From: a bacterium
GTDB taxonomy: Bacteria; JACRDZ01; JAQUKH01
Direction: 5' to 3'
Length of the DNA: 43,777 nucleotides
NCBI GenBank assembly: GCA_028719205.1
Contig: JAQUKH010000024.1
Span: 1 to 43,777 of the forward strand
Below the pieces are notes generated by a model, which saw only the letters and a program-made list of their open reading frames with translations, was not told where the DNA came from and ran no database searches. The number at the start of each line of letters is the position of its first letter. The stretch's first letter is position 1. This document shows positions 6,454 through 40,727 of the stretch, in pieces. Made by a program: the position numbers and the translations under genes.

Positions 6454-9400
6454 ATGCGAAAAAAATTTACTTCAGTAATGTTAGTTTTATTTCTAACTCC
6501 TGTTTATACAGTAATATTTATTTCTTCTTTATCAAGCCAAAATACTCCAGATGAATATAAAAAAGGCGAATTGATCGTAAAATTCAAGCCAGAAACAGAT
6601 AATTCGGTGGTACAAAAATCTTTATATCGTAACGCTATGAGTGTCAAAAAATCTTTTAATAATATTCCGGTGAAAATTGTGAAAATAGAATCCGGATTGA
6701 CTGTAGAAAAGGCAATCAAAAACCTTGAAAATGATCCGAATGTGGAATACGCGGAACCTAATTTTATTTTGCACGGTTCAACTGTCGTGCCGAACGATCA
6801 GCAATTTGGTAAATTATGGGGATTAAATAATACAGGGCAAAATGAGGGAATAGCAGACGCGGATATTGATGCCCCTGAAGCCTGGGATATAACTACAGGC
6901 AGCGGCAATGCCGTAGTCGCGGTGATTGACAGCGGTATAGACTATACACATGAGGACCTTAAGAAAAATGTTTGGGCCAACCCGGGAGAAATTGCGGATA
7001 ACGGTATTGATGATGATGGAAACGGCGTAATAGATGATGTCCATGGTTATAACGCGGCAAGAAATAACGGTGATCCGATGGATGATGCTGAACATGGTTC
7101 TCATGTTTCCGGTACTATAGGTTCATCGGGAAATAACGGAATAGGAATTTCAGGGATTAACTGGAAAGTGAAAATCATGGCTTTAAAATTTTTAGAACCT
7201 GTTGCAAATGGAAGCACAGAAGGGTTAACGAGCCATGCGATAGAATGCATAGATTATGTGTTAGATATGAAAAAAAGAGGTATTAATGTCAGGGTTATAA
7301 ATAACAGCTGGGGGAATGACAGCTATTCATTTTCACTTTATGATGCTATCTCAGCCCTGAAAGATGAAGGTATCTTATTTGTCGCGTCAGCGGGGAATGA
7401 CAATGTTGATGTTTCTTCTGACCCTCGTTATCCCGCGAGTTATAATCTGCAAAATATAATTTCAGTGGCTGCCACGGATAACAAAGATCAATTGGCGCAT
7501 TTCTCGAATTATGGATCAGTGGATGTGGATTTGGGAGCACCCGGAGTTGGTATTTTAAGCACTGTACCGGATGACAAATATGCTATATGGGACGGAACAT
7601 CCATGGCGGCGCCTCATGTTTCAGGAGTTGCCGCTTTGTTGTGGGACTTCAGGCCGGAGTTAAGTTATAACGCGATCAAAAGAATTCTATTAACAAGCGG
7701 AGATCCTGTTCCCGGTTTAAATGGGAAAACGGTAACCGGAAAAAGACTGAACGCGTATAATGCTTTGAGATCTCCTGTGCCTCCGACTGAGCCGCCGGTA
7801 GTAAGTATTGGGGATACGCAATATATACAAAATAAAGACATGCCCATATTTTTTGATGGCTCTTCTTCATATGATCCTGACGGAGACATAGTTTCATATG
7901 CATGGGATTTCGGGGATAGTACTAATATCACAGGGAGTGAATCTCAAATATCGCATGTTTACAATTTACCAGGGGAATTTAAGGGAAGTTTGACTGTTAT
8001 GGATGATGAGAACGCTGTTTCGAAGGTTGAATTTAATGTTAAGATCATTGATCATAAACTTGAACCTGCTTACGGATATAATAATACAACCACTATGCTG
8101 ACTGTTACTTCGACAGGCAATGATTTTGATGTCTCCTCTCAAATAAACATTAAAGCCTACAATTCCGGTATTATAGGAAGTATCAATACAACGGGTACTG
8201 GCCGTAGAATTTGGGTATCGGGAAACTACGTGTATGTTGCTCATTTTGACTTAGGATTACAAATTATAGATATAAGTGATCCGGTAAATCCGGTTTTAAA
8301 GGGAAGCTTTGGCTCATCGGGTTTAACGGTTAGAGGGGTTTATGTTTCAGGGAATTATGCGTATCTGGCTTGTTACGATGATGGATTTAAAATAGTGGAT
8401 ATAAGCGATCCAGCCAGCCCCGTTGAGGTGGGTAGTTTAAATCTTCTTAATATCAATGAAGAAGTTTTTGTGTCGGGTAACTACGCATATGTAGGGTATT
8501 TGTGTGGAGTAAAAGTGATAGATATAAGCAATCCTTATTTACCAGCCATAACAGGAAGTATTGATCTCCCCGGTTACGATGTCTGTGGGATATATGTATC
8601 CGGAAATTATGCGTATGCGGCAGTTAATACTTTATCGGCGGGGAGACTTGATATAATAGACATAAGTAATCCGGTAAACCCTGTTCTTACAGGAACTGTC
8701 GGGGTAGGCTCAGGAACCAGTGGAAGCAGTATTTGGAGCGCCGCTCCAAAGGGAGTTTATATATCCGGCGCTTATGCATATTTAGTGCATTCGATGGGAT
8801 TGCAGATAATCGATGTAATTGATCCCGGAAATCCCGCTATAACAGGGGGGATAAACACACCTGGTTCGGCTGAGGACGTGTATGTATCCGGTATTTACGC
8901 ATACATTGCAAATTCTACCGATGGATTACAAATAGTAGACATAAGCAACCCGGTAATGCCGGCTATAAAAGAAAGCGTTGATTTGCCCGGCTATACTAAC
9001 GGAGTTTATATTTCAGGCAATTATGTCTATGTAAGTAAAGGCTATCCCGGCGGATTACAGGTAATTAATAAAGCGAGCATAAATTCTTCATCTGAGCCGA
9101 CAATATTTGTAAATAACAACACCTTAACAAAAATTGTCCCGGCAGGTTTGACTGCGGATAAATACGATATTAAAATTAATGATTATACTTCAGGAAAGTT
9201 GTTATTTGCTGCCGGATTTACAGCTTTAAATCCTGGAGACACACCTCCTGCTCCGCCCGTTATAATATCTTTAGATCCAAATTATGATTCAGGGAAAGCT
9301 CCTTTTAATGTGAATTTTAAGGCAAATGCTTATGACCCTGATGGAACTATAATAAAATGCGAATGGGATTTTGACGGGAATGGTACTTATGATTTGGTTT

Positions 9401-9984
9401 CTTTATCCAATACCGTTTCTAATACTTATACAAAAGCCGGAACTTTTAACGCGAGGGTCAGGGTTACGGATAATGACAGTGTCTCAATTACATCGTATGC
9501 AAGAATTTCCTGTATCCTTAATAAACCTCCTTCAGTATTTTTAACCTCAAACACGGTTTTTGGTGAATTGCCGCTGGCGGTAGATTTTAAAGCTAACGCT
9601 TATGACCCTGATGGGACAATAGTAAAATACGAGTGGGATCTTGATGGAAATGGAATTTATGATTCAACTACTGTTACTAACGTCGTAAGCCATAGTTATA
9701 ATGGCCCTGCTAAATATAATCCTAAAGTAAGAGTGACCGACAATGATGGTGCTGTTACTGTAGCTTCGGCAGTTGTGAAATTTAAAACTAATATCAAAGG
9801 GAATATTGATTGTATTTCTCCCGGTTCGGAAAACAGAGTTGATGGATATGATTTGTACTTATTGAAGAGGGCGTTTGGGTCTAAAACAGGCGATCCCGAT
9901 TGGAAAGCGGCAGCGGATATAAATGATGATGCAATAGTTAATGGTGAGGACCTTATTTTGTTAGCGGCTGATTTCGGCAGGTAA
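6454..9984 (+). CDS. Secreted subtilisin-like protease with PKD, split IPT, LVIVD propeller and C-terminal dockerin, 1176 aa
   Basis: Order of parts: signal peptide (~1-28); inhibitory propeptide (~36-108, ELIVKFKP through YAEPNFILHG); S8 catalytic domain (~118-440) with Asp159 (VIDSG), His214 (EHGSHVSG), oxyanion Asn315 (SAGND) and Ser383 (GTSMAAPHV), all intact; PKD (~445-533, YAWDFGD); first half of an IPT/TIG-like domain (~537-570); seven LVIVD beta-propeller repeats (~571-875); IPT second half (~878-925); two PKD domains (~930-1110); dockerin (~1115-1176). The second dockerin calcium loop is canonical (DINDDAIVNGED); the first lacks acidic residues at positions 1 and 3. The enzyme is exported and should be active outside the inner membrane. 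The dockerin predicts docking on a cohesin, and a cohesin gene follows 12 bases downstream. GAGAGAT is the probable ribosome-binding site. Confidence 0.93.
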   Translation: MRKKFTSVMLVLFLTPVYTVIFISSLSSQNTPDEYKKGELIVKFKPETDNSVVQKSLYRNAMSVKKSFNNIPVKIVKIESGLTVEKAIKNLENDPNVEYAEPNFILHGSTVVPNDQQFGKLWGLNNTGQNEGIADADIDAPEAWDITTGSGNAVVAVIDSGIDYTHEDLKKNVWANPGEIADNGIDDDGNGVIDDVHGYNAARNNGDPMDDAEHGSHVSGTIGSSGNNGIGISGINWKVKIMALKFLEPVANGSTEGLTSHAIECIDYVLDMKKRGINVRVINNSWGNDSYSFSLYDAISALKDEGILFVASAGNDNVDVSSDPRYPASYNLQNIISVAATDNKDQLAHFSNYGSVDVDLGAPGVGILSTVPDDKYAIWDGTSMAAPHVSGVAALLWDFRPELSYNAIKRILLTSGDPVPGLNGKTVTGKRLNAYNALRSPVPPTEPPVVSIGDTQYIQNKDMPIFFDGSSSYDPDGDIVSYAWDFGDSTNITGSESQISHVYNLPGEFKGSLTVMDDENAVSKVEFNVKIIDHKLEPAYGYNNTTTMLTVTSTGNDFDVSSQINIKAYNSGIIGSINTTGTGRRIWVSGNYVYVAHFDLGLQIIDISDPVNPVLKGSFGSSGLTVRGVYVSGNYAYLACYDDGFKIVDISDPASPVEVGSLNLLNINEEVFVSGNYAYVGYLCGVKVIDISNPYLPAITGSIDLPGYDVCGIYVSGNYAYAAVNTLSAGRLDIIDISNPVNPVLTGTVGVGSGTSGSSIWSAAPKGVYISGAYAYLVHSMGLQIIDVIDPGNPAITGGINTPGSAEDVYVSGIYAYIANSTDGLQIVDISNPVMPAIKESVDLPGYTNGVYISGNYVYVSKGYPGGLQVINKASINSSSEPTIFVNNNTLTKIVPAGLTADKYDIKINDYTSGKLLFAAGFTALNPGDTPPAPPVIISLDPNYDSGKAPFNVNFKANAYDPDGTIIKCEWDFDGNGTYDLVSLSNTVSNTYTKAGTFNARVRVTDNDSVSITSYARISCILNKPPSVFLTSNTVFGELPLAVDFKANAYDPDGTIVKYEWDLDGNGIYDSTTVTNVVSHSYNGPAKYNPKVRVTDNDGAVTVASAVVKFKTNIKGNIDCISPGSENRVDGYDLYLLKRAFGSKTGDPDWKAAADINDDAIVNGEDLILLAADFGR

Positions 9985-9996
9985 GGAGACCGGATA

Positions 9997-10569
9997 ATGA
10001 AAAAAATTAGAAAATTTTTACTGGGAATATTATTTGCGGCTAATTTATTTATCCCCCATGGCTGCAGCTGCGCCGGTAAGGGAAATGATACTACCGGTTC
10101 CAATCCTGTAGTACCAGCTATTTCTTTCAGGGCCTCAGGGGCACCTGCCAATAACTCAGTTTATATTGAGGCTATCTCATCCAATGCCGATGAAATAACT
10201 TTAGGCGTGAAAGTAAAAGGCGGGACTGATGTTTATGGAACGTCTTTGGAAATAGTATATGACCAAGACAAATTGTTTTATGATACCTATTCGGCGGAAG
10301 GGAATTATCTTGGAGTTAGCCCGGGAGATTGTTATGCTAAATTATATCAAAAACAGGGAGTATTGCTTGTCGGAATTTTTAAAACAGGAAATGTCCCGGG
10401 CACTGATGGTGATGGTTTATTGCTAACTCTTAATTTTAAGGCATTAAAAGCACAAGTCAACACCCCGATAGAGTTTAATACGTTACATTGTGTCCTAAAA
10501 TCTTCTAATAAAAATAATGACAATATCTCCGGAACGAATTGGCTTGGCGGAAGTTTAAGTTATGAGTAG
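9997..10569 (+). CDS. Cohesin-domain protein, probable membrane-anchored lipoprotein, 190 aa
   Basis: A short N-terminal hydrophobic signal ends in a Cys at residue 23 (IPHGC), followed by a Gly/Thr/Asn-rich linker and one cohesin domain (~42-190). Cohesin-type features are VYGTSLEIVYDQDKL, the GVLLVGIF strand and GTDGDGLLLTLNFKA. Cohesins bind dockerins with calcium and assemble multi-protein complexes. The lipobox is weak (Pro at -3), so anchoring is inferred partly from its paralogue at 15517, which has a good lipobox and Cys at the same position. The gene begins 12 bases after the dockerin-bearing protease with its own AAGGAG, so the two are almost certainly co-transcribed and probably partners. 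It lacks the PKD spacers of its paralogue. Confidence 0.82.
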   Translation: MKKIRKFLLGILFAANLFIPHGCSCAGKGNDTTGSNPVVPAISFRASGAPANNSVYIEAISSNADEITLGVKVKGGTDVYGTSLEIVYDQDKLFYDTYSAEGNYLGVSPGDCYAKLYQKQGVLLVGIFKTGNVPGTDGDGLLLTLNFKALKAQVNTPIEFNTLHCVLKSSNKNNDNISGTNWLGGSLSYE

Positions 10570-15516: not shown

Positions 15517-16635
15517 ATGTTCAAAAATAGAAATTCATTTTTGTCAGGGATATTTTTTTTGATGATCATGTTTTTAAACAGCTGTAACTTTATTGATAAA
15601 AGTTCAGACCCTGTGTTTCCAACTTCAAATAATCCTCCTTCAGTGAGTTTGGCGGCAAATATAGCAACAGGGAATACGCCTCTGTTGGTAAATTTTGCAG
15701 CTACTGTTACAGTTAACAATGGAAGCATAATAAAATATGAATGGGATTTTGATAATAATGGAGTTTATGATAGCACTACAACCAGTAATTTAATAAGTTA
15801 TGCTTATGATACTGCCGGAATATATACTTCCAAAGTTAGAGTAACGGATAATACTGGAACAACAGCTGAAGTTACTGCACAATTTACAGTTGGATATTCC
15901 CTTTCGGTAAGTTTGGCGGCAAATCCTGCATTAGGGGTAGCGCCACTAACGGTAAATTTTACAGCTAATTCTACATATGGCGGAGAAAGCGCGGTAAAAT
16001 ATGAATGGGATTTTGATAATAATGGAGTTTATGATACTACTACAACCGGTAAATCTGTAAGTCATATATATAGTATTGTTGGAATATATACTTCCAAAGT
16101 TAGAGTAACGGATAATGTTGGAGTGACAGCAGAATCTACTGTACAGGTTACGGTTACAACTCCGGTTAATCAAATCAGTACAATTTCTTTTACTCCATCA
16201 GGTATACCTTCAGATAACACGGTATATTTGGAACAAGTTGCGATAAATAATGATGAAATAACATTAGCTGTCAGGGTTAAAGGCGGAACAAATGTATATG
16301 GGGCAGCAATGGAGATAACATATGATAGCAGTAAAATAAACTATATATCTATAAGCCAAGGAAATTATTTAGGTGCGAAAGCAGATACCGCTTTTTATGC
16401 TTCGCTCATTAATGGGCAGAAAGGAATATTGCTGATTGGGATTGATAAAAAAGGAAATGTTCCGGGAACAAATGGGGACGGAACGTTAGTTACTATTGTT
16501 TTCAGGGCGGTAGCAACGCAGACTAATACAGCTATAGGATTTAATATCCAACATAGCGTTTTGAAATCACCAAACGCAGGTAATGCAAATATTCCCGGTA
16601 CATTATGGATCGGCGGGAGTTTGAGTTATAACTAA
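15517..16635 (+). CDS. Cohesin lipoprotein with two PKD spacer domains, 372 aa
   Basis: The lipoprotein signal ends in a good lipobox (FLNSC, Cys23). Two PKD domains follow (~41-125 and ~128-214, each with KYEWDFDNNG and KVRVTDN), then a cohesin domain (~220-372). The cohesin closely parallels the one at 9997 (VYGAAMEITYDSSKI; GILLIGID; GTNGDGTLVTIVFRA; identical end GGSLSY). This is a lipid-anchored dockerin receptor on a two-domain stalk, probably facing the periplasm or cell surface. It sits inside the branched-chain amino acid operon, 11 bases after ilvD with its own AAGGAAG and 43 bases before ilvN, so it is probably co-transcribed with biosynthetic genes it has no obvious link to. That suggests insertion into the operon. 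Confidence 0.87.
   Translation: MFKNRNSFLSGIFFLMIMFLNSCNFIDKSSDPVFPTSNNPPSVSLAANIATGNTPLLVNFAATVTVNNGSIIKYEWDFDNNGVYDSTTTSNLISYAYDTAGIYTSKVRVTDNTGTTAEVTAQFTVGYSLSVSLAANPALGVAPLTVNFTANSTYGGESAVKYEWDFDNNGVYDTTTTGKSVSHIYSIVGIYTSKVRVTDNVGVTAESTVQVTVTTPVNQISTISFTPSGIPSDNTVYLEQVAINNDEITLAVRVKGGTNVYGAAMEITYDSSKINYISISQGNYLGAKADTAFYASLINGQKGILLIGIDKKGNVPGTNGDGTLVTIVFRAVATQTNTAIGFNIQHSVLKSPNAGNANIPGTLWIGGSLSYN
15731..16036 (+). repeat. Direct repeat of PKD-coding DNA inside the cohesin lipoprotein gene
   Basis: A 42-base block beginning at 15731 recurs exactly at 15995, a period of 264 bases (88 codons). Another near-identical block encodes the following VRVTDN segment. The two PKD domains arose by recent in-gene duplication or are kept alike by recombination. 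Confidence 0.8.
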
Positions 16636-31176: not shown

Positions 31177-31860
31177 TTATTTTATTAATCTTTTACGTAA
31201 TCCCGCGAAACCGAATAATCCTGAAGCTAAACTGACGAGTAACATAATTGTGCCTGGTTCGGGAGTTTGAACTGTTGATATTCTCCCTTGCAAATGTCCC
31301 CAATCAGAATAATCAGGGCCTGCTGAAGAAACCCCGAAATAAAGGTAATCGTTATAATTAAGAAAAATATTGGTTAGATTATAATTAACAACATCTCCCG
31401 GATTCAGGTAACTTGAGAATAATAAAGTGTCATTTTTTTTAATATAGCTTTGAATATAACCGCTATCAGGATACAGATTATCTATCTTTAACCAGAAAGA
31501 ACCCGTTAAATTATATAAATTATTATAAGGCGATAAAAAGGCAAGGTTTACGTCTTCTGTACCATATTCAGTTCCACATTGCGGCATTGAGGACGGATGC
31601 ATATATATCCATGGTTGATTAACTTTCACGATCATAGGATTCTCAAATGGCTGTTCCGGAGTTAAAAAAGTATGGTTCGCATCAGGTTTTTTAGCTATAG
31701 ACCTATATGTGTTTGTTTCAGGACTATAACCATAAGCATACAATCCATTTTCACCCTGGTAATTGGGGAACTGAGACCAAAGATCAATAGTGAGAGCTCC
31801 TGCGCTTTGCCCACCTGCTAAAATAAAAATTGTACTTAAAAAAAATAATAATTTTTTCAT
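31177..31860 (-). CDS. PEP-CTERM sorting-domain secreted protein, 227 aa
   Basis: An N-terminal signal peptide (MKKLLFFLSTIFILAGGQSAGA) and a C-terminal sorting tail are present: TPEPGT (Pro200 onward), a hydrophobic helix (IMLLVSLASGLFGFAGL) and a basic end RKRLIK. PEP-CTERM tails are processed by exosortases and occur in bacteria that make exopolysaccharide (established for the family). The middle (WSQFPNYQGENGLYAYGY and onward) is a strand-rich domain I do not recognise. It lies 40 bases upstream of the synthase on the same strand and is probably first in the operon. No exosortase gene is in the window. AAGGATGG serves as ribosome-binding site. Confidence 0.85.
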   Translation of the reverse strand: MKKLLFFLSTIFILAGGQSAGALTIDLWSQFPNYQGENGLYAYGYSPETNTYRSIAKKPDANHTFLTPEQPFENPMIVKVNQPWIYMHPSSMPQCGTEYGTEDVNLAFLSPYNNLYNLTGSFWLKIDNLYPDSGYIQSYIKKNDTLLFSSYLNPGDVVNYNLTNIFLNYNDYLYFGVSSAGPDYSDWGHLQGRISTVQTPEPGTIMLLVSLASGLFGFAGLRKRLIK

Positions 31861-32090: not shown

Positions 32091-33098
32091 ATGGCTATAA
32101 AAATCGCGATTAACGGGTTCGGAAGGATCGGCAGGAATTTCATGAGGATAGCCTCAGATCAAAAAAATTTTGAAATTGTGGCGATAAATGATCTGACGGA
32201 TGCCTCGGTTTTGGCTCATCTCTTAAAATATGATTCAGTTCACAGGATTTTTAACAAGGATGTAAAAGCTCAGGATAATAACATCATTGTTGACGGCCGT
32301 AAAATTAAAGTGATTTCTGAGAAAGATATTAATAAACTGCCATGGAAAGACCTTGGCGCGGATATAGTTATTGAGTCCACAGGCCTTTTTACGGAAAAAG
32401 AAAAAGCGCAGGTTCATTTAACGAACGGCGCGAAAAAGGTAATTATAAGCGCTCCCGCGAAAAATCCGGATATAACAATTGTTTTAGGTGTAAATGAAAA
32501 GACCTATGACAAGTCTAAACATCATATTATTTCAAACGCCTCATGCACCACAAATTGTTTAGCGCCTATCGCTAAAATAATTGATGAGAATTATAAGATC
32601 AAGCACGGGTTCATGCTTACTACCCACTCGTATACTAATGACCAGAGAATTTTGGATCTGCCGCACAAGGACCTTCGCAGGGCGAGAGCCGCGGCGGTTT
32701 CAATGATACCTACTACAACAGGCGCGGCAACCGCGACCGCTTTAGTTCTTCCGCAATTAAAAGGGAAGCTTGATGGTTTGTCGGTAAGAGTTCCCACACC
32801 AAATGTTTCAATGGTGGATTTTGTGACTGAAGTGGAAAAAACTACCACGAAAGAAGAAGTTAACGCGGCATTAAAGAAAGCTACTCAAAATGAATTAAAA
32901 GGAATTCTTGATTTTTGCGAACTGCCTTTGGTTTCTATAGACTTTTTGGATAATCCGCATTCATCGATAGTGGACGCCTTGTCAACAATGGTAATTGATA
33001 AAACTATGATAAAGGTGATCTCCTGGTATGACAACGAATGGGGATATTCCAGCAGGCTGGTAGATTTAGTTAATTATGTTAATAAACAGGGGTTGTAA
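32091..33098 (+). CDS. gap: Glyceraldehyde-3-phosphate dehydrogenase, type I, 335 aa
   Basis: Glycolytic oxidation of glyceraldehyde 3-phosphate to 1,3-bisphosphoglycerate. The Rossmann motif [13 protein letters not shown] opens the protein, the catalytic Cys lies in [12 protein letters not shown], the catalytic His in THSYTNDQ, and the C-terminal [16 protein letters not shown] is complete. A clear promoter and AGGAG precede the ATG. The stop overlaps the pgk-tpi start (TAATG), so the three glycolytic activities are translated together. Cofactor preference (NAD most likely, Asp in the AINDL segment) is inferred. Confidence 0.97.
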
Positions 33099-35047
33099 TG
33101 AATAAATTATCAGTAAGAGACCTGGATGTAAAAGGTAAAAGGATCCTTATCAGGACCGATTTCAATGTGCCGCTTGATAAGAAGGGCGAAATCATTGATA
33201 TTATCAGGATAACAAGTTCCATTCCTACAATAAAAAATGTTATTGACCGCGGCGGCCGGGCCATTTTGATCTCTCATCTGGGAAGGGCGAAGGGTGAGGT
33301 TATTGAAGGCCTTAGAATGAATAAGGTCGCGGAAAAACTGGAAGTGGCGTTAGGCAAAAAAATAAAAAAATTGAATGACTGCATAGGGACTTCTGTTGAA
33401 ATGTCAGTAGCGGGGATGAAAGACGGTGATGTAATTCTTCTGGAAAATGTAAGGTTTTATAATGAGGAAGAGGATAATGACCCTGAATTCGCACAGAAAT
33501 TAGCAAAACTCTGTGATTATTACGTAAATGACGCTTTCAGTGTTTCTCATCGGGCACACGCGTCGGTTGTCGGCGTGACTAAATTTGTTTCAAAGGCAGC
33601 AGCCGGTTTGTTAATGGAAAAGGAAATAAAATATCTGGGACAGGCAGTCCAAAATCCAAAAAGGCCGTTTTTGGTTATTCTTGGCGGAAGCAAAGTTTCA
33701 GATAAAATAGAAATATTTAAACATCTTTTACATAAAGTCGACACGTTTTTGATCGGCGGAGGGATGGCCTACACATTTTTAAAATCTCAGGGGATATTAA
33801 CCGGAGATTCTTTGGTAGAGAAAGACAAACTGGATGTCGCTAATGAGATCCTGGAAAATGTAAAAAAGAATCATAGCAAAATAATTTTGCCTGTAGACCA
33901 TATTATTGCTGATGAATTTTCAAAGACAGCTAACAGCAGGGTCCAGGATGAAAAATCAATACCTGATGGCTGGCGGGGTATGGATATCGGGCCTAAAACA
34001 ATTGAGCTTTTTAAAAAAGAAATTGAAAAAGCAAATACGATCCTTTGGAACGGGCCTGTCGGGGTTTACGAATTACCCCAGTTTAAAAATGGAACGATCG
34101 CGCTCGCGAAACTTTTGGCTGAATCAAAAGCGACAACGATCATAGGAGGCGGGGATTCAGCGGCGGCGATACATGACAGTAATGTAGAAGATAAAATTAC
34201 CCATATTTCCACAGGCGGCGGCGCGTCATTAGAATTTCTTGAAGGAAAATCGCTTCCGGGAATAGAAGCACTCAGCGATATTGAAGGAAGAAAAATATTT
34301 ATTGCCGGGAATTGGAAAATGAATACACTGCAGAAAGACGCGAGAATACTTATAAACGGCATCAAGGAAAAGACAGATGGATTTAAAAATATTGATATAG
34401 CATTTATCCCGCCCTATACTCATCTTTTTTTAATGCAGGATATACTTAAGGATTCAAATATCAAATTTGGGGCTCAAAATATGTATTTTGAAGAAAAGGG
34501 AGCATATACCGGAGAAATATCGCCGTTGATGCTTAAGGATTTAGGCTGTACTTATGTTATAATAGGCCACTCGGAAAGACGGAAATATTTTAATGAGAAC
34601 GATGAGCTTTTAAATAAAAAAATAAAATCCGCTTTGAAACACGGGTTATTTCCGATTTATTGTGTTGGAGAGACTCAGGAAGAAAGGGATAAAAATTTAC
34701 ATCAGAAGGTAGTAGAAAAACAATTAATTAATGGTTTAACCGGAATAACCAGTGATGAAATTAAGAAAATAACAATTGCTTATGAGCCGGTATGGGCGAT
34801 CGGTACCGGTAAAAACGCGACACCTGAGCAAGCGGAAGAAATGCATAAATTTATCAGGAACCGGATTTCAGTGATCTATGATGAGGAAATTTCTTCTAAT
34901 GTCCGTATCCAATACGGGGGAAGTGTAACTTCTGAAAATGTGGCGGATATTCTTAAACAGGAAAACATTGATGGCGCGCTGGTTGGAGGCGCGAGCCTAA
35001 AAATTGATACTTTTTCGGATCTGTTAAAAATTGCAAATAATTTGTAA
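33098..35047 (+). CDS. pgk-tpiA: Fused phosphoglycerate kinase - triosephosphate isomerase, 649 aa
   Basis: A single open frame without an internal stop. Residues ~1-396 are phosphoglycerate kinase (RTDFNVPLD, SHLGRAKG, LENVRFY, NDAFSVSHRAHAS, GGGDSAAAI with ISTGGGASLEFLEG). Residues ~397-649 are triosephosphate isomerase (IAGNWKMN with catalytic Lys, IIGHSERR with catalytic His ~491, AYEPVWAIGTGKNATPEQ with catalytic Glu ~563, the YGGSV phosphate loop). All catalytic residues are present in both halves. Such a fusion is well known in Thermotoga. It overlaps gap at the start and is followed by secG with 12 bases between. Confidence 0.96.
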   Translation: MNKLSVRDLDVKGKRILIRTDFNVPLDKKGEIIDIIRITSSIPTIKNVIDRGGRAILISHLGRAKGEVIEGLRMNKVAEKLEVALGKKIKKLNDCIGTSVEMSVAGMKDGDVILLENVRFYNEEEDNDPEFAQKLAKLCDYYVNDAFSVSHRAHASVVGVTKFVSKAAAGLLMEKEIKYLGQAVQNPKRPFLVILGGSKVSDKIEIFKHLLHKVDTFLIGGGMAYTFLKSQGILTGDSLVEKDKLDVANEILENVKKNHSKIILPVDHIIADEFSKTANSRVQDEKSIPDGWRGMDIGPKTIELFKKEIEKANTILWNGPVGVYELPQFKNGTIALAKLLAESKATTIIGGGDSAAAIHDSNVEDKITHISTGGGASLEFLEGKSLPGIEALSDIEGRKIFIAGNWKMNTLQKDARILINGIKEKTDGFKNIDIAFIPPYTHLFLMQDILKDSNIKFGAQNMYFEEKGAYTGEISPLMLKDLGCTYVIIGHSERRKYFNENDELLNKKIKSALKHGLFPIYCVGETQEERDKNLHQKVVEKQLINGLTGITSDEIKKITIAYEPVWAIGTGKNATPEQAEEMHKFIRNRISVIYDEEISSNVRIQYGGSVTSENVADILKQENIDGALVGGASLKIDTFSDLLKIANNL

Positions 35048-37307: not shown

Positions 37308-40300
37308 ATGAAAATTAAATATGTTCTATTTTTATTTTTGATTTTATCAGTAAAAACTGTTTTTACTGCAGCTCCTGTAATTGAGTCAATATCGCCTGTT
37401 TCAGGTTACAACGATGAATTTACAAACATAACTATCAACGGCCAGAATTTTGATTCAGCCTGCAGGGTATCTATAAGTTCCGGAAGTTTTTATTTAAAAG
37501 GGACATATAATACCCCGGGACGCGCGTATGGCGTATATGTAAATGGGAATTATGCTTATGTTGCGTATGAAACCTCCGGTTTAGAAATAATTGATATCAG
37601 TAATCCGGCAAGTCCGAGTTTAACAGGGACATATAATACGCCGGGAAGAGCTTTAGGAGTATATGTAAATGGGAATTACGCCTATGTTGCGGATGATACT
37701 ACCGGTTTACAGATAATCGATATAAGTGATCCGGCAAACCCGATTTTAAAAGGGACATATAATACGCCGGGAAATGCTATAGGCGTATATGTAAATGGGA
37801 ATTATGCTTATGTAGCGGATTTAGGTTCCGGTTTGCAAATAATCGATATAAGTGATCCGGCTAGTCCAACCTTAAAGGGAACTTATGATACGCCAGGAAA
37901 TGCTATAGGAGTATATGTAAATAATATAAATGCAGATACTACTTACGCGTATGTGGCAGATGATGATTCCGGTTTGAAAATAATTGATGTGAGTGATCCG
38001 GCAAACCCGATTTTAAAAGGGACATATAATACTCCTGGATATGCAGAAGGAGTATATATAAATGGGAATTATGCATATGTAGCGGATTTTGGCTCCGGTT
38101 TAGAAATAATCGATATAAGTAATCCGGCAAGCCCGATTTTAAAGGGGACATATAATACGCCTGGAAATGCTATAGGAGTACATGTAAATGGAAATTATGC
38201 ATATGTAGCGGATTTTAGTTCCGGTTTACAAATAATAGATATAAGTGATCCGGCAAACCCGATTTTAAAAGGGACATATAATACGCCTGGATATTCTGTA
38301 GGAGTATATGTAAATGGGGATTATGCATATGTAGCAGATTTAGATTCCGGTTTACAAATAATCAATATAGGTAATTTATCAAGTTCGAGTTTAAAAGGGA
38401 CATATAATACACCGGGATACGCGGAGGGAGTGTATGTAAATGGGGATTATGCGTATGTAGCGGATTTTGGTTCCGGTTTACAAATAATAGATATAAGTGA
38501 TCCGGCAAACCCGATTTTAAAAGGGACATATAATACGCCTGGATACGCGGAAGGAGTGTATGTAAATGGGGATTATGCGTATGTAGCGGATTATGGTTCC
38601 GGTTTACAAATAATAGATATAAGTGATCCGGCAAATCCGATTTTAAAAGGGACATATAATACACCGGGATATGCGTATGGGGTATATATAAAGGGGAATT
38701 ATGCATATATTGCGGATGGTATTTCCGGTTTACAGATAATAGATATAAGTGATCCGGCAAACCCGATTTTAAAAGGGACATATAATACACCTGGAAATGC
38801 TATAGGAGTATATACGGATGGTGATTATGCATATGTAGCGGATTTTGATTTCGGTTTACAAATAATAGACGTAAGCAATCCGGCAGGCCCGATTTTAAAA
38901 GGAACATATAATACACCGGGGAATGTGTATGCGGTATATATAAAGGGAAATTATGCGTATGCTGCGGATGATACTGCCGGTTTACAAATAATCGATATAA
39001 GTGATCCGGCAAACCCGAGTTTAAAGGGGACATATGATACGCCGGGAAATGCTTCGGGAGTGGATATAAGCGGGAATTATGTATATGTAGCGGATTTTAG
39101 TTCCGGTTTACAAATAATTGATATAAGCAATCCGGAAAATCCAAGTTTAAAAGGAAGCATCGATACTATGGGATATTCTATGAAAGTATATGTAAATGGG
39201 AATTATGTATATATAGCGGATTTTGATTCCGGTTTACAAATAATCCAAAAAATAAGCGCAGGGAGTGAATGTGGAAATATTATATATAATGATTCAACTT
39301 CGATGACCGCGGATGTTTTAACGCGATTATGCCCGGGTAAATATAACATAACAGTGACAAACACAAATGGAGAACAAGGGATTTTATATAATTGTTTTGA
39401 TGTGTTGCAGGGAATAACAGTAAATAACGCGCCAATATTTGATCCGACAGGAAACAAGATAGTAAATGAGTATGAAACACTAAGCTTTACAATAACAGGT
39501 TCTGATCCGGACGCAGATATTGTATTTTATGAGGAATCAAATTTACCGGATGGAGCAAATTTTAATACAAATACTAAAAAATTTACATGGAAACCGAATT
39601 ATTTACAACAAGGCCTATATTATGTGAATTTCGGTATTTATGACGGTGAATTGGCCGGATATGAGACAATAAGTATAACAGTTAACAATATAGATATTCC
39701 GCCAACAGTAACGTTAATTGCCGCTGAAACAACTGGAGTCGCTCCGCTGACAGTGAACTTTACGGCAAACGCGCATGATCCGAATGGAACAATAATAAAT
39801 TATGAGTGGGATCTGGACGGGAATGGGAGTTATGAAACAAGCACAACAGGAAATACACATTCATATACATATAGTACAACTGGAACATATAACGCGAAAG
39901 TGAGGGTAACCGATAATGATAGCGCAGCAGCTATAGATACTGAAACAATAACAGTAAATAATCCGCCTAATCAGCTTCCAACGGTAACCCTGATAGCTGA
40001 TAAAACAACGGGAGTAATCCCGCTGACAGTGAACTTTACGGCAAACGCGCATGATCCGAATGGAACAATAATAAATTATGAGTGGGATCTGGACGGGAAC
40101 GGGAGTTATGAAACAAGCACAACAGGAAATACACATTCATATAAATATAGTACAACTGGAACATATAACGCGAAAGTGAGGGTAACCGATAATGATAGCG
40201 CAGCAGCGATAGATACTGAAACAATAACAGTAAATAATCCGCCTAATCAGCTTCCAACAGTAACACTGATAGCAGGTAAAACAACAGGAGTAAGTCCGCT

Positions 40301-40727
40301 GACAGTGGACTTTACGGCAGATACGTTTGATCCAGACGCAACAATAATAAATTACGAGTGGGATCTGGACGGGAATGGGAGTTATGAAACAAGCACAATA
40401 GAAAACACATATTCATATACATATAATATTGCAGGAACTTACAATACAAAAGTAAGGGTAACAGACAATGACAAGGTAACAGCAATAGATACTAAAACAA
40501 TAACAGTGTCGCGACCGAAGAATAATTTGCCATTAGGTAATATTGACATAAGTTCCCCCGGTTCATCCGACCGTGTTGACGGGCATGATCTATATGTATT
40601 AGGCAAGGCATTCGGGGCTCAGCCCGGGTATTCCAACTGGAATATTTTAGCTGATCTTGATGAGAATAATATCATTGACGGGAATGACCTTATAATATTC
40701 GCAGGGAATTTCGGGAAAAAGAATTAA
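37308..40727 (+). CDS. Giant secreted repeat protein: split IPT domain, 14 LVIVD repeats, three PKD domains and dockerin, 1139 aa
   Basis: Order: signal peptide (~1-21); first half of an IPT/TIG domain (~23-60, PVIESISPVSGYNDEFTNI to RVSISSG); 14 LVIVD repeats of 42 residues (65 to ~650; unit core NGNYAYVAD..SGLQIIDISDPANP, repeat 4 has a 5-residue insert); IPT second half (~660-710, STSMTADVLTRLCPGKYNITV); a cadherin/Ig-like domain (~715-798, SDPDADIVFYEES); three PKD domains (~799-1067, YEWDLDGNGSYE); dockerin (~1077-1139) close to that of the subtilase. Fourteen repeats could form two seven-bladed propellers. No catalytic domain is seen, so it is probably a binding or scaffold-like surface protein. 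GGAGGTG is the ribosome-binding site. It lies between an ABC binding protein and its permeases. Confidence 0.9.
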   Translation: MKIKYVLFLFLILSVKTVFTAAPVIESISPVSGYNDEFTNITINGQNFDSACRVSISSGSFYLKGTYNTPGRAYGVYVNGNYAYVAYETSGLEIIDISNPASPSLTGTYNTPGRALGVYVNGNYAYVADDTTGLQIIDISDPANPILKGTYNTPGNAIGVYVNGNYAYVADLGSGLQIIDISDPASPTLKGTYDTPGNAIGVYVNNINADTTYAYVADDDSGLKIIDVSDPANPILKGTYNTPGYAEGVYINGNYAYVADFGSGLEIIDISNPASPILKGTYNTPGNAIGVHVNGNYAYVADFSSGLQIIDISDPANPILKGTYNTPGYSVGVYVNGDYAYVADLDSGLQIINIGNLSSSSLKGTYNTPGYAEGVYVNGDYAYVADFGSGLQIIDISDPANPILKGTYNTPGYAEGVYVNGDYAYVADYGSGLQIIDISDPANPILKGTYNTPGYAYGVYIKGNYAYIADGISGLQIIDISDPANPILKGTYNTPGNAIGVYTDGDYAYVADFDFGLQIIDVSNPAGPILKGTYNTPGNVYAVYIKGNYAYAADDTAGLQIIDISDPANPSLKGTYDTPGNASGVDISGNYVYVADFSSGLQIIDISNPENPSLKGSIDTMGYSMKVYVNGNYVYIADFDSGLQIIQKISAGSECGNIIYNDSTSMTADVLTRLCPGKYNITVTNTNGEQGILYNCFDVLQGITVNNAPIFDPTGNKIVNEYETLSFTITGSDPDADIVFYEESNLPDGANFNTNTKKFTWKPNYLQQGLYYVNFGIYDGELAGYETISITVNNIDIPPTVTLIAAETTGVAPLTVNFTANAHDPNGTIINYEWDLDGNGSYETSTTGNTHSYTYSTTGTYNAKVRVTDNDSAAAIDTETITVNNPPNQLPTVTLIADKTTGVIPLTVNFTANAHDPNGTIINYEWDLDGNGSYETSTTGNTHSYKYSTTGTYNAKVRVTDNDSAAAIDTETITVNNPPNQLPTVTLIAGKTTGVSPLTVDFTADTFDPDATIINYEWDLDGNGSYETSTIENTYSYTYNIAGTYNTKVRVTDNDKVTAIDTKTITVSRPKNNLPLGNIDISSPGSSDRVDGHDLYVLGKAFGAQPGYSNWNILADLDENNIIDGNDLIIFAGNFGKKN
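37500..39250 (+). repeat. Tandem array of fourteen ~126-bp LVIVD-coding repeats
   Basis: Units begin with GGGACATATAATAC-like DNA every 126 bases, except the fourth, which is 141. Neighbouring units such as the eighth and ninth differ at only about five positions, so the array is recent or homogenised and may vary in copy number between strains. Confidence 0.88.
39702..40511 (+). repeat. Three 276-bp PKD-coding repeats
   Basis: Unit starts at 39702, 39978 and 40254 are exactly 276 bases (92 codons) apart. The first two are nearly identical over more than 200 bases; the third has diverged more. This indicates recent duplication. Confidence 0.88.

Follow-up and report, generated by a model that had tools for sequence, protein, structure and literature searches.

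Cohesins and dockerins that belong to no cellulosome occur in all domains of life, and binding between archaeal representatives is reported as verified (as cited in PMC9012536); the roles of these modules outside cellulosomes are not well understood, in part because it is difficult to tell which partners belong together. Dockerin-bearing peptidases occur in cellulosomes (PMC6780208), and 'Ca. Stygibacter' (Cloacimonadota) combines a secreted S8 peptidase carrying a C-terminal dockerin with a surface-attached scaffoldin (PMC8542988). Adhesin roles have been proposed for the cohesins and dockerins of consortia of anaerobic methanotrophic archaea (ANME) (PMC10553843), and a 2024 census gives SLH, LPxTG, LysM and transmembrane anchors for cohesins, never mentioning lipoproteins (PMC11557425). 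Here we describe a two-gene unit of an uncultured bacterium on contig JAQUKH010000024.1 (GenBank assembly GCA_028719205.1), analysed over its 43,777 nucleotides, which we call the window, in which the gene for a dockerin-tagged S8 protease is followed by that for a lipoprotein with one cohesin. The lipoprotein is probably the membrane receptor of the secreted protease, in a design that recurs across the genome. The window is contig 24 (C24) of draft genome G000, of 2.59 Mb and 93% complete, which was compared within its small phylum with G001 (same genus), G002 (another family) and G003. The features of the unit are as follows.

6454..9984, forward strand: gene for an S8 (subtilisin-like) protease with signal peptide, propeptide, catalytic domain, PKD, LVIVD repeats and C-terminal dockerin (Pfam, motifs)
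6907..7701, forward strand: Peptidase_S8 catalytic domain with intact Asp/His/Ser motifs (PF00082, 181 bits)
9814..9981, forward strand: dockerin with two calcium-loop repeats (PF00404; genome profile against the PDB; alignment)
9997..10569, forward strand: gene for a single-cohesin lipoprotein, 12 bases 3' of the protease gene (open reading frame, ORF; Pfam)
10063..10065, forward strand: codon of Cys23, the putative lipidation site (PHGC; lipobox comparison with paralogues)
10189..10533, forward strand: cohesin domain (PF00963, 34.4 bits; model against solved cohesins)

The protease ORF is intact over 1176 aa and lies on the same strand as the cohesin ORF, and its product matches the Pfam families Fervidolysin-type propeptide, Peptidase_S8, PKD, LVIVD repeats and Dockerin_1. 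It is a member of peptidase family S8, with the catalytic motifs DSG (159), HGSH (214) and GTSMAAPH (381) all in place. The dockerin scored 20.2 bits in the whole-protein scan and 25.5 bits in the genome scan, on either side of the Dockerin_1 cut-off of 22.9; the call is nonetheless sound, because a profile built from four C-termini of G000, the window's included, matches the solved dockerin 2y3n_B with E=2.4e-14. Its second loop is canonical (DINDDAIVNGED), while the first exists but has degenerate ligands and an insertion of the SPGS type that is typical of a dockerin clade specific to this genome.

The protease and cohesin genes are in frame with each other, with a single TAA as the stop between them, and a GGAG ribosome-binding site lies within the 12-base gap. 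The cohesin ORF is likewise intact (190 aa), comprising a lipoprotein-type signal, a short linker and one cohesin domain, which is the only Pfam match of the product and stands well above its cut-off of 24.1 bits. The structure model (predicted local distance difference test score, pLDDT, 68; predicted template modelling score, pTM, 0.69) matches solved cohesins with Z of 8-11.8 and a root-mean-square deviation mostly of 2.2-3.2 Å over about 120 residues, the best match reaching Z 11.8 at 2.4 Å over 120 residues, and it has the beta-sandwich fold of the family. A lipobox-like cysteine, the motif of bacterial lipoproteins, was present in 15 of 15 lone cohesin proteins checked. The original prediction, which described an intact S8 protease ending in a dockerin and, closely behind it, a lipoprotein-type signal with one cohesin, is therefore borne out by motifs, profile scores and fold; of the two Pfam profiles by which it proposed to be judged, cohesin was matched clearly and dockerin at about the cut-off.

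The unit is one of a series. Neighbourhoods were read as six-frame ORFs. G000 has 12 cohesin matches by Pfam and 14 with our own profile, most of them a lone cohesin behind a lipobox-like signal, and dockerin matches at about 12 loci. Seven dockerin/cohesin gene pairs were found, six of them on single contigs, where the genes are direct neighbours on the same strand: at C24 (the window), C31, C30 and C3 the dockerin gene comes first, and at C8 and C1 the cohesin gene, with spacings from an 11-base overlap (C30) up to about 20 bases. A contig break divides the seventh pair: C46 carries a cohesin gene and, after it, a propeller gene cut short by the contig end, and C10 begins inside a propeller gene with a dockerin at its end; the join is supported because the outer flanks of both contigs sit together on one contig of G001. 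Adjacency exceeds chance. For 10 cohesins and 12 dockerins among about 2,400 genes, chance would yield 0.1 adjacent pairs, and none of 20,000 random placements gave more than three; nor did 200,000 placements restricted to the genome-specific clade (8 cohesins, 9 dockerins). Seven pairs, about 12 dockerin loci and 12-14 cohesin matches make the idea of a minimal one-enzyme, one-anchor design too narrow: the original prediction is supported in that no scaffoldin, and no glycoside hydrolase among the dockerin proteins, was seen, but the unit is not an isolated one.

Two small proteins (L023 4484-4867 and L098 181-507; 108-127 aa) consist of a signal or transmembrane stretch and a dockerin alone; they adjoin a cohesin lipoprotein and are kept in both G000 and G001. 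A detached second half of a dockerin lies just downstream of the intact dockerin gene on C10 (L041 1551-1637), and on C17 a dockerin is truncated within its second loop (L043 6498-7646); these fragments are possible traces of recombination. Two C10 cohesins stand in a separate context beside pilin-like genes, kept in G001 and G002. The cohesin at the C-terminus of a protein of about 650 aa near pilin-like genes, found in G000, G001 and G002 (L020 6691-9235; L106 5328-7280; L107 4009-5967), is a separate use of the domain.

The proteins that carry dockerins in G000 are mostly surface proteins of beta-propeller, PKD, VWA and Ig-like type, and their domains include RCC1, LVIVD and DUF5122 propellers, PKD, VWA, fn3 and cadherin-like modules. 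Anchoring of the protease is one use of what seems to be a display system of general purpose, with few enzymes among its cargo. The same domain families would also serve a cellulosome-like complex in which dockerin proteins assemble on multi-cohesin scaffoldins, and some relatives in other phyla do carry several cohesins, or a cohesin with a dockerin, in one protein. We regard such a complex as very improbable here and rejected it: every cohesin protein of the clade has a single cohesin, so that no scaffoldin was seen in this 93% complete genome, and no glycoside-hydrolase catalytic domain was found in the S8 protein or in ten other dockerin proteins scanned.

The window also holds two unpaired members of the set, each set within an operon.

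15517..16635, forward strand: second cohesin lipoprotein, with two PKD domains and one cohesin, between ilvD and ilvN
37308..40727, forward strand: second dockerin protein, with LVIVD propeller, PKD and a dockerin at 40557-40724, between oppA and oppB

The latter belongs to the 'choice-of-anchor B' family (138.9 bits against a cut-off of 100), and a 'choice-of-anchor X' domain (32.6 bits, cut-off 25) lies in the VWA protein of C30. Elsewhere, choice-of-anchor families end in LPXTG, PEP-CTERM or type IX secretion system (T9SS) signals and are anchored at the surface. The best reading is that the dockerin here occupies the C-terminal anchor slot of these proteins.

Comparison with relatives shows which parts of the set are shared. 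The original prediction proposed to look in related genomes for conserved adjacency of the two genes, and the arrangement does recur there: in G001, the C107 pair is the orthologue of the C3 pair, and on C90 a cohesin lipoprotein adjoins a dockerin protein with an M4/M36-like metalloprotease domain (HEYTH motif); in G002, on C117, a dockerin FG-GAP/fn3 protein is followed by a cohesin lipoprotein. No counterpart of the window's own S8 gene was found in G001. S8 proteases of up to 55% identity occur in G003, in which neither Pfam cohesin nor Pfam dockerin matches were found. Directly after the G002 pair lies an exosortase-like gene of 179 aa (L105 9125-9664; PF09721, 31 bits). In trees, eight cohesins and eight intact dockerins of G000 fall into clades without a G001 member, and the truncated ninth dockerin, on C17, has the same first-loop type as this clade; across ten pairs, cohesin and dockerin distances are strongly correlated (Mantel, r=0.92).

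These results bear on the alternative that the dockerin-like tails are calcium-binding structural ends and the cohesin lipoproteins adhesins with an unrelated role, the two never binding each other. It would fit the altered first loop of the window dockerin and a sample of 290 genomes in which cohesins (60 genomes) and dockerins (79 genomes) often occur apart. Seven adjacent pairs, a parallel lineage-specific expansion of both families and conserved pairs in two other genomes make it improbable.

Five sites of genome-specific genes are empty in G001 or hold another gene there, and at two of these a whole two-gene pair is concerned. The C31 pair fills 2.6 kb between a porin gene and pyrR, an interval of about 10 bases in G001, and the C46/C10 pair, between an FAH-family gene and ylxM-ffh, is absent from G001. 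At the ilvD-ilvN site of the branched-chain amino-acid operon G001 has 79 bases and no cohesin gene; a lone cohesin gene between ruvA and ruvB faces 22 bases in G001, and at oppA-oppB the position of the dockerin gene is taken in G001 by an unrelated ORF of 233 aa. At the site of the window pair, the G001 contig ends just past uvrA, and the M16 gene of G001 has different neighbours. With one sibling compared, gain in the G000 lineage is more likely than loss. A mobile element was considered and rejected, no inverted repeat or target duplication being evident in the junctions read and the window loci scanned.

We therefore read the set as a scaffoldin-free, clip-on system of surface display, which best accounts for the evidence as a whole. 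Sec would export both the protease and the cohesin protein; the latter, once lipidated, would be held in one of the two membranes of this diderm, most likely the outer, and clipping of the dockerin into the cohesin, presumably with calcium, would retain the protease on the cell. Dockerin-tagged propeller, PKD, VWA and Ig-like proteins would each be served by a cohesin lipoprotein encoded alongside, with a few unpaired partners elsewhere, and the set probably grew in this lineage by the gain of two-gene units and of single genes between genes of unrelated operons. Since members of the genome-specific clade resemble one another at the residues that commonly determine recognition, their plugs and sockets are probably interchangeable and not strictly private.

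The membrane anchor in a diderm that the original prediction proposed gains support from this genomic inference, since BamA-type Omp85 proteins are present in all four genomes of the phylum (in G000 on C1, E=1.5e-57), which shows an envelope with an outer membrane. The side of the membrane is a matter for a further alternative, in which dockerins bind their lipoproteins within the periplasm or on the inner membrane and the cargo is retained or regulated without being displayed. A Sec signal and a lipobox are not enough to place a protein on the surface, and we found no dedicated route by which cargo or lipoprotein would cross the outer membrane, although no detailed search for one was made. 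Against this stand the cargo domains (propellers, PKD, VWA, fn3, cadherin-like modules, proteases), of kinds that characterize surface or secreted proteins, and the surface anchoring of choice-of-anchor families elsewhere, and we consider retention inside the envelope unlikely.

Several observations weigh against display of the protease by its neighbour, or limit it. The lipobox of the window copy, PHGC, is weak and less canonical than those of its paralogues (LNGC, LNSC, LSGC and others). Calcium binding at the first dockerin loop is uncertain because that loop is non-canonical. A model of the fused chain, with the TAA read through and window sequences only, reached pLDDT 46 and pTM 0.43 and is uninformative on docking. 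Dockerins are not the sole anchor, since all four genomes of the phylum also encode exosortase (PF09721). Among the six close pairs, the correlation between cohesin and dockerin distances is only weak (r=0.54, P=0.057); co-expansion and not private pairing is accordingly what the distances show, and one-to-one pairing was set aside as unsupported within the close clade.

Two other features of the window were recorded: on the reverse strand, 31177-31860 encodes a protein with a PEP-CTERM-like tail and adjoins a glycosyltransferase gene, and 33098-35047 is a single ORF in which phosphoglycerate kinase and triosephosphate isomerase appear to be fused.

We entertain with some doubt a general form of plug-and-socket sorting in this candidate phylum of diderm bacteria. 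In it the dockerin would stand in for C-terminal anchors of the covalent or T9SS type, and a single cohesin with a lipid anchor would act as receptor; tag and receptor would spread through the genome as two-gene cassettes, inserted between genes of unrelated operons, and so make further surface proteins subject to a common anchoring code. Among the matches listed from the 290-genome sample (about 20 loci, a small sample), no pair of small lipoprotein and dockerin protein was seen in other phyla, and a scan of viral contigs gave two dockerin-like matches only. What the locus suggests is a reusable, clip-on fixing of different proteins, a protease included, to the cell envelope, which could yield a display tool for two-membraned bacteria. 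It offers natural gene pairs with lipoprotein-type receptors, defined cargo and sibling sites that lack them, so that small soluble domains would allow direct tests of which partners match, whether calcium is needed and how the code evolved.

Cohesin-dockerin systems outside cellulosomes have been described before, as have dockerin-tagged S8 proteases of diderms. For the repeated pairing of cargo with single-cohesin lipoprotein genes, the expansion of such pairs within one lineage and the sibling sites that lack them, no description was found in a literature covered in part, which suggests that these features are new. As in the pair of Archaeoglobus fulgidus and the survey of Peer et al. 2009 (as cited in PMC9012536), single cohesin and dockerin proteins occur outside cellulosomes and without a scaffoldin; the difference is that the cohesin here is a predicted lipoprotein, gene-paired with its cargo seven times in one genome. 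'Ca. Stygibacter' shares membership of a candidate phylum, an S8 peptidase with C-terminal dockerin and surface attachment, but differs in its 3,755-aa scaffoldin with tandem cohesins and carbohydrate-binding modules, its attachment through a C-terminal domain and its glycoside hydrolases (PMC8542988). The adhesins of ANME and their sulfate-reducing partners resemble this set in their many cohesin and dockerin proteins with surface-type domains, but include multi-cohesin proteins and S-layer/dockerin fusions, and the accounts consulted describe no pairs of cargo and lipoprotein genes among them (PMC9012536, PMC10553843). With cellulosomal anchoring scaffoldins and stand-alone cohesins the system has in common that a cell-bound cohesin takes up a dockerin-bearing protein, and the fold matches stand-alone cohesins such as the autonomous cohesin 4n2o of R. 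flavefaciens; cellulosomal anchoring cohesins, however, have cell-wall or transmembrane anchors, whereas here a lipid anchor is predicted, in a diderm and without cellulases. In its logic the system would be analogous to LPXTG/sortase, PEP-CTERM/exosortase and T9SS, in which a C-terminal tag likewise fixes varied 'choice-of-anchor' proteins to the envelope; it is no member of these, because a folded dockerin serves as the tag and a lipoprotein would hold it without a covalent bond.

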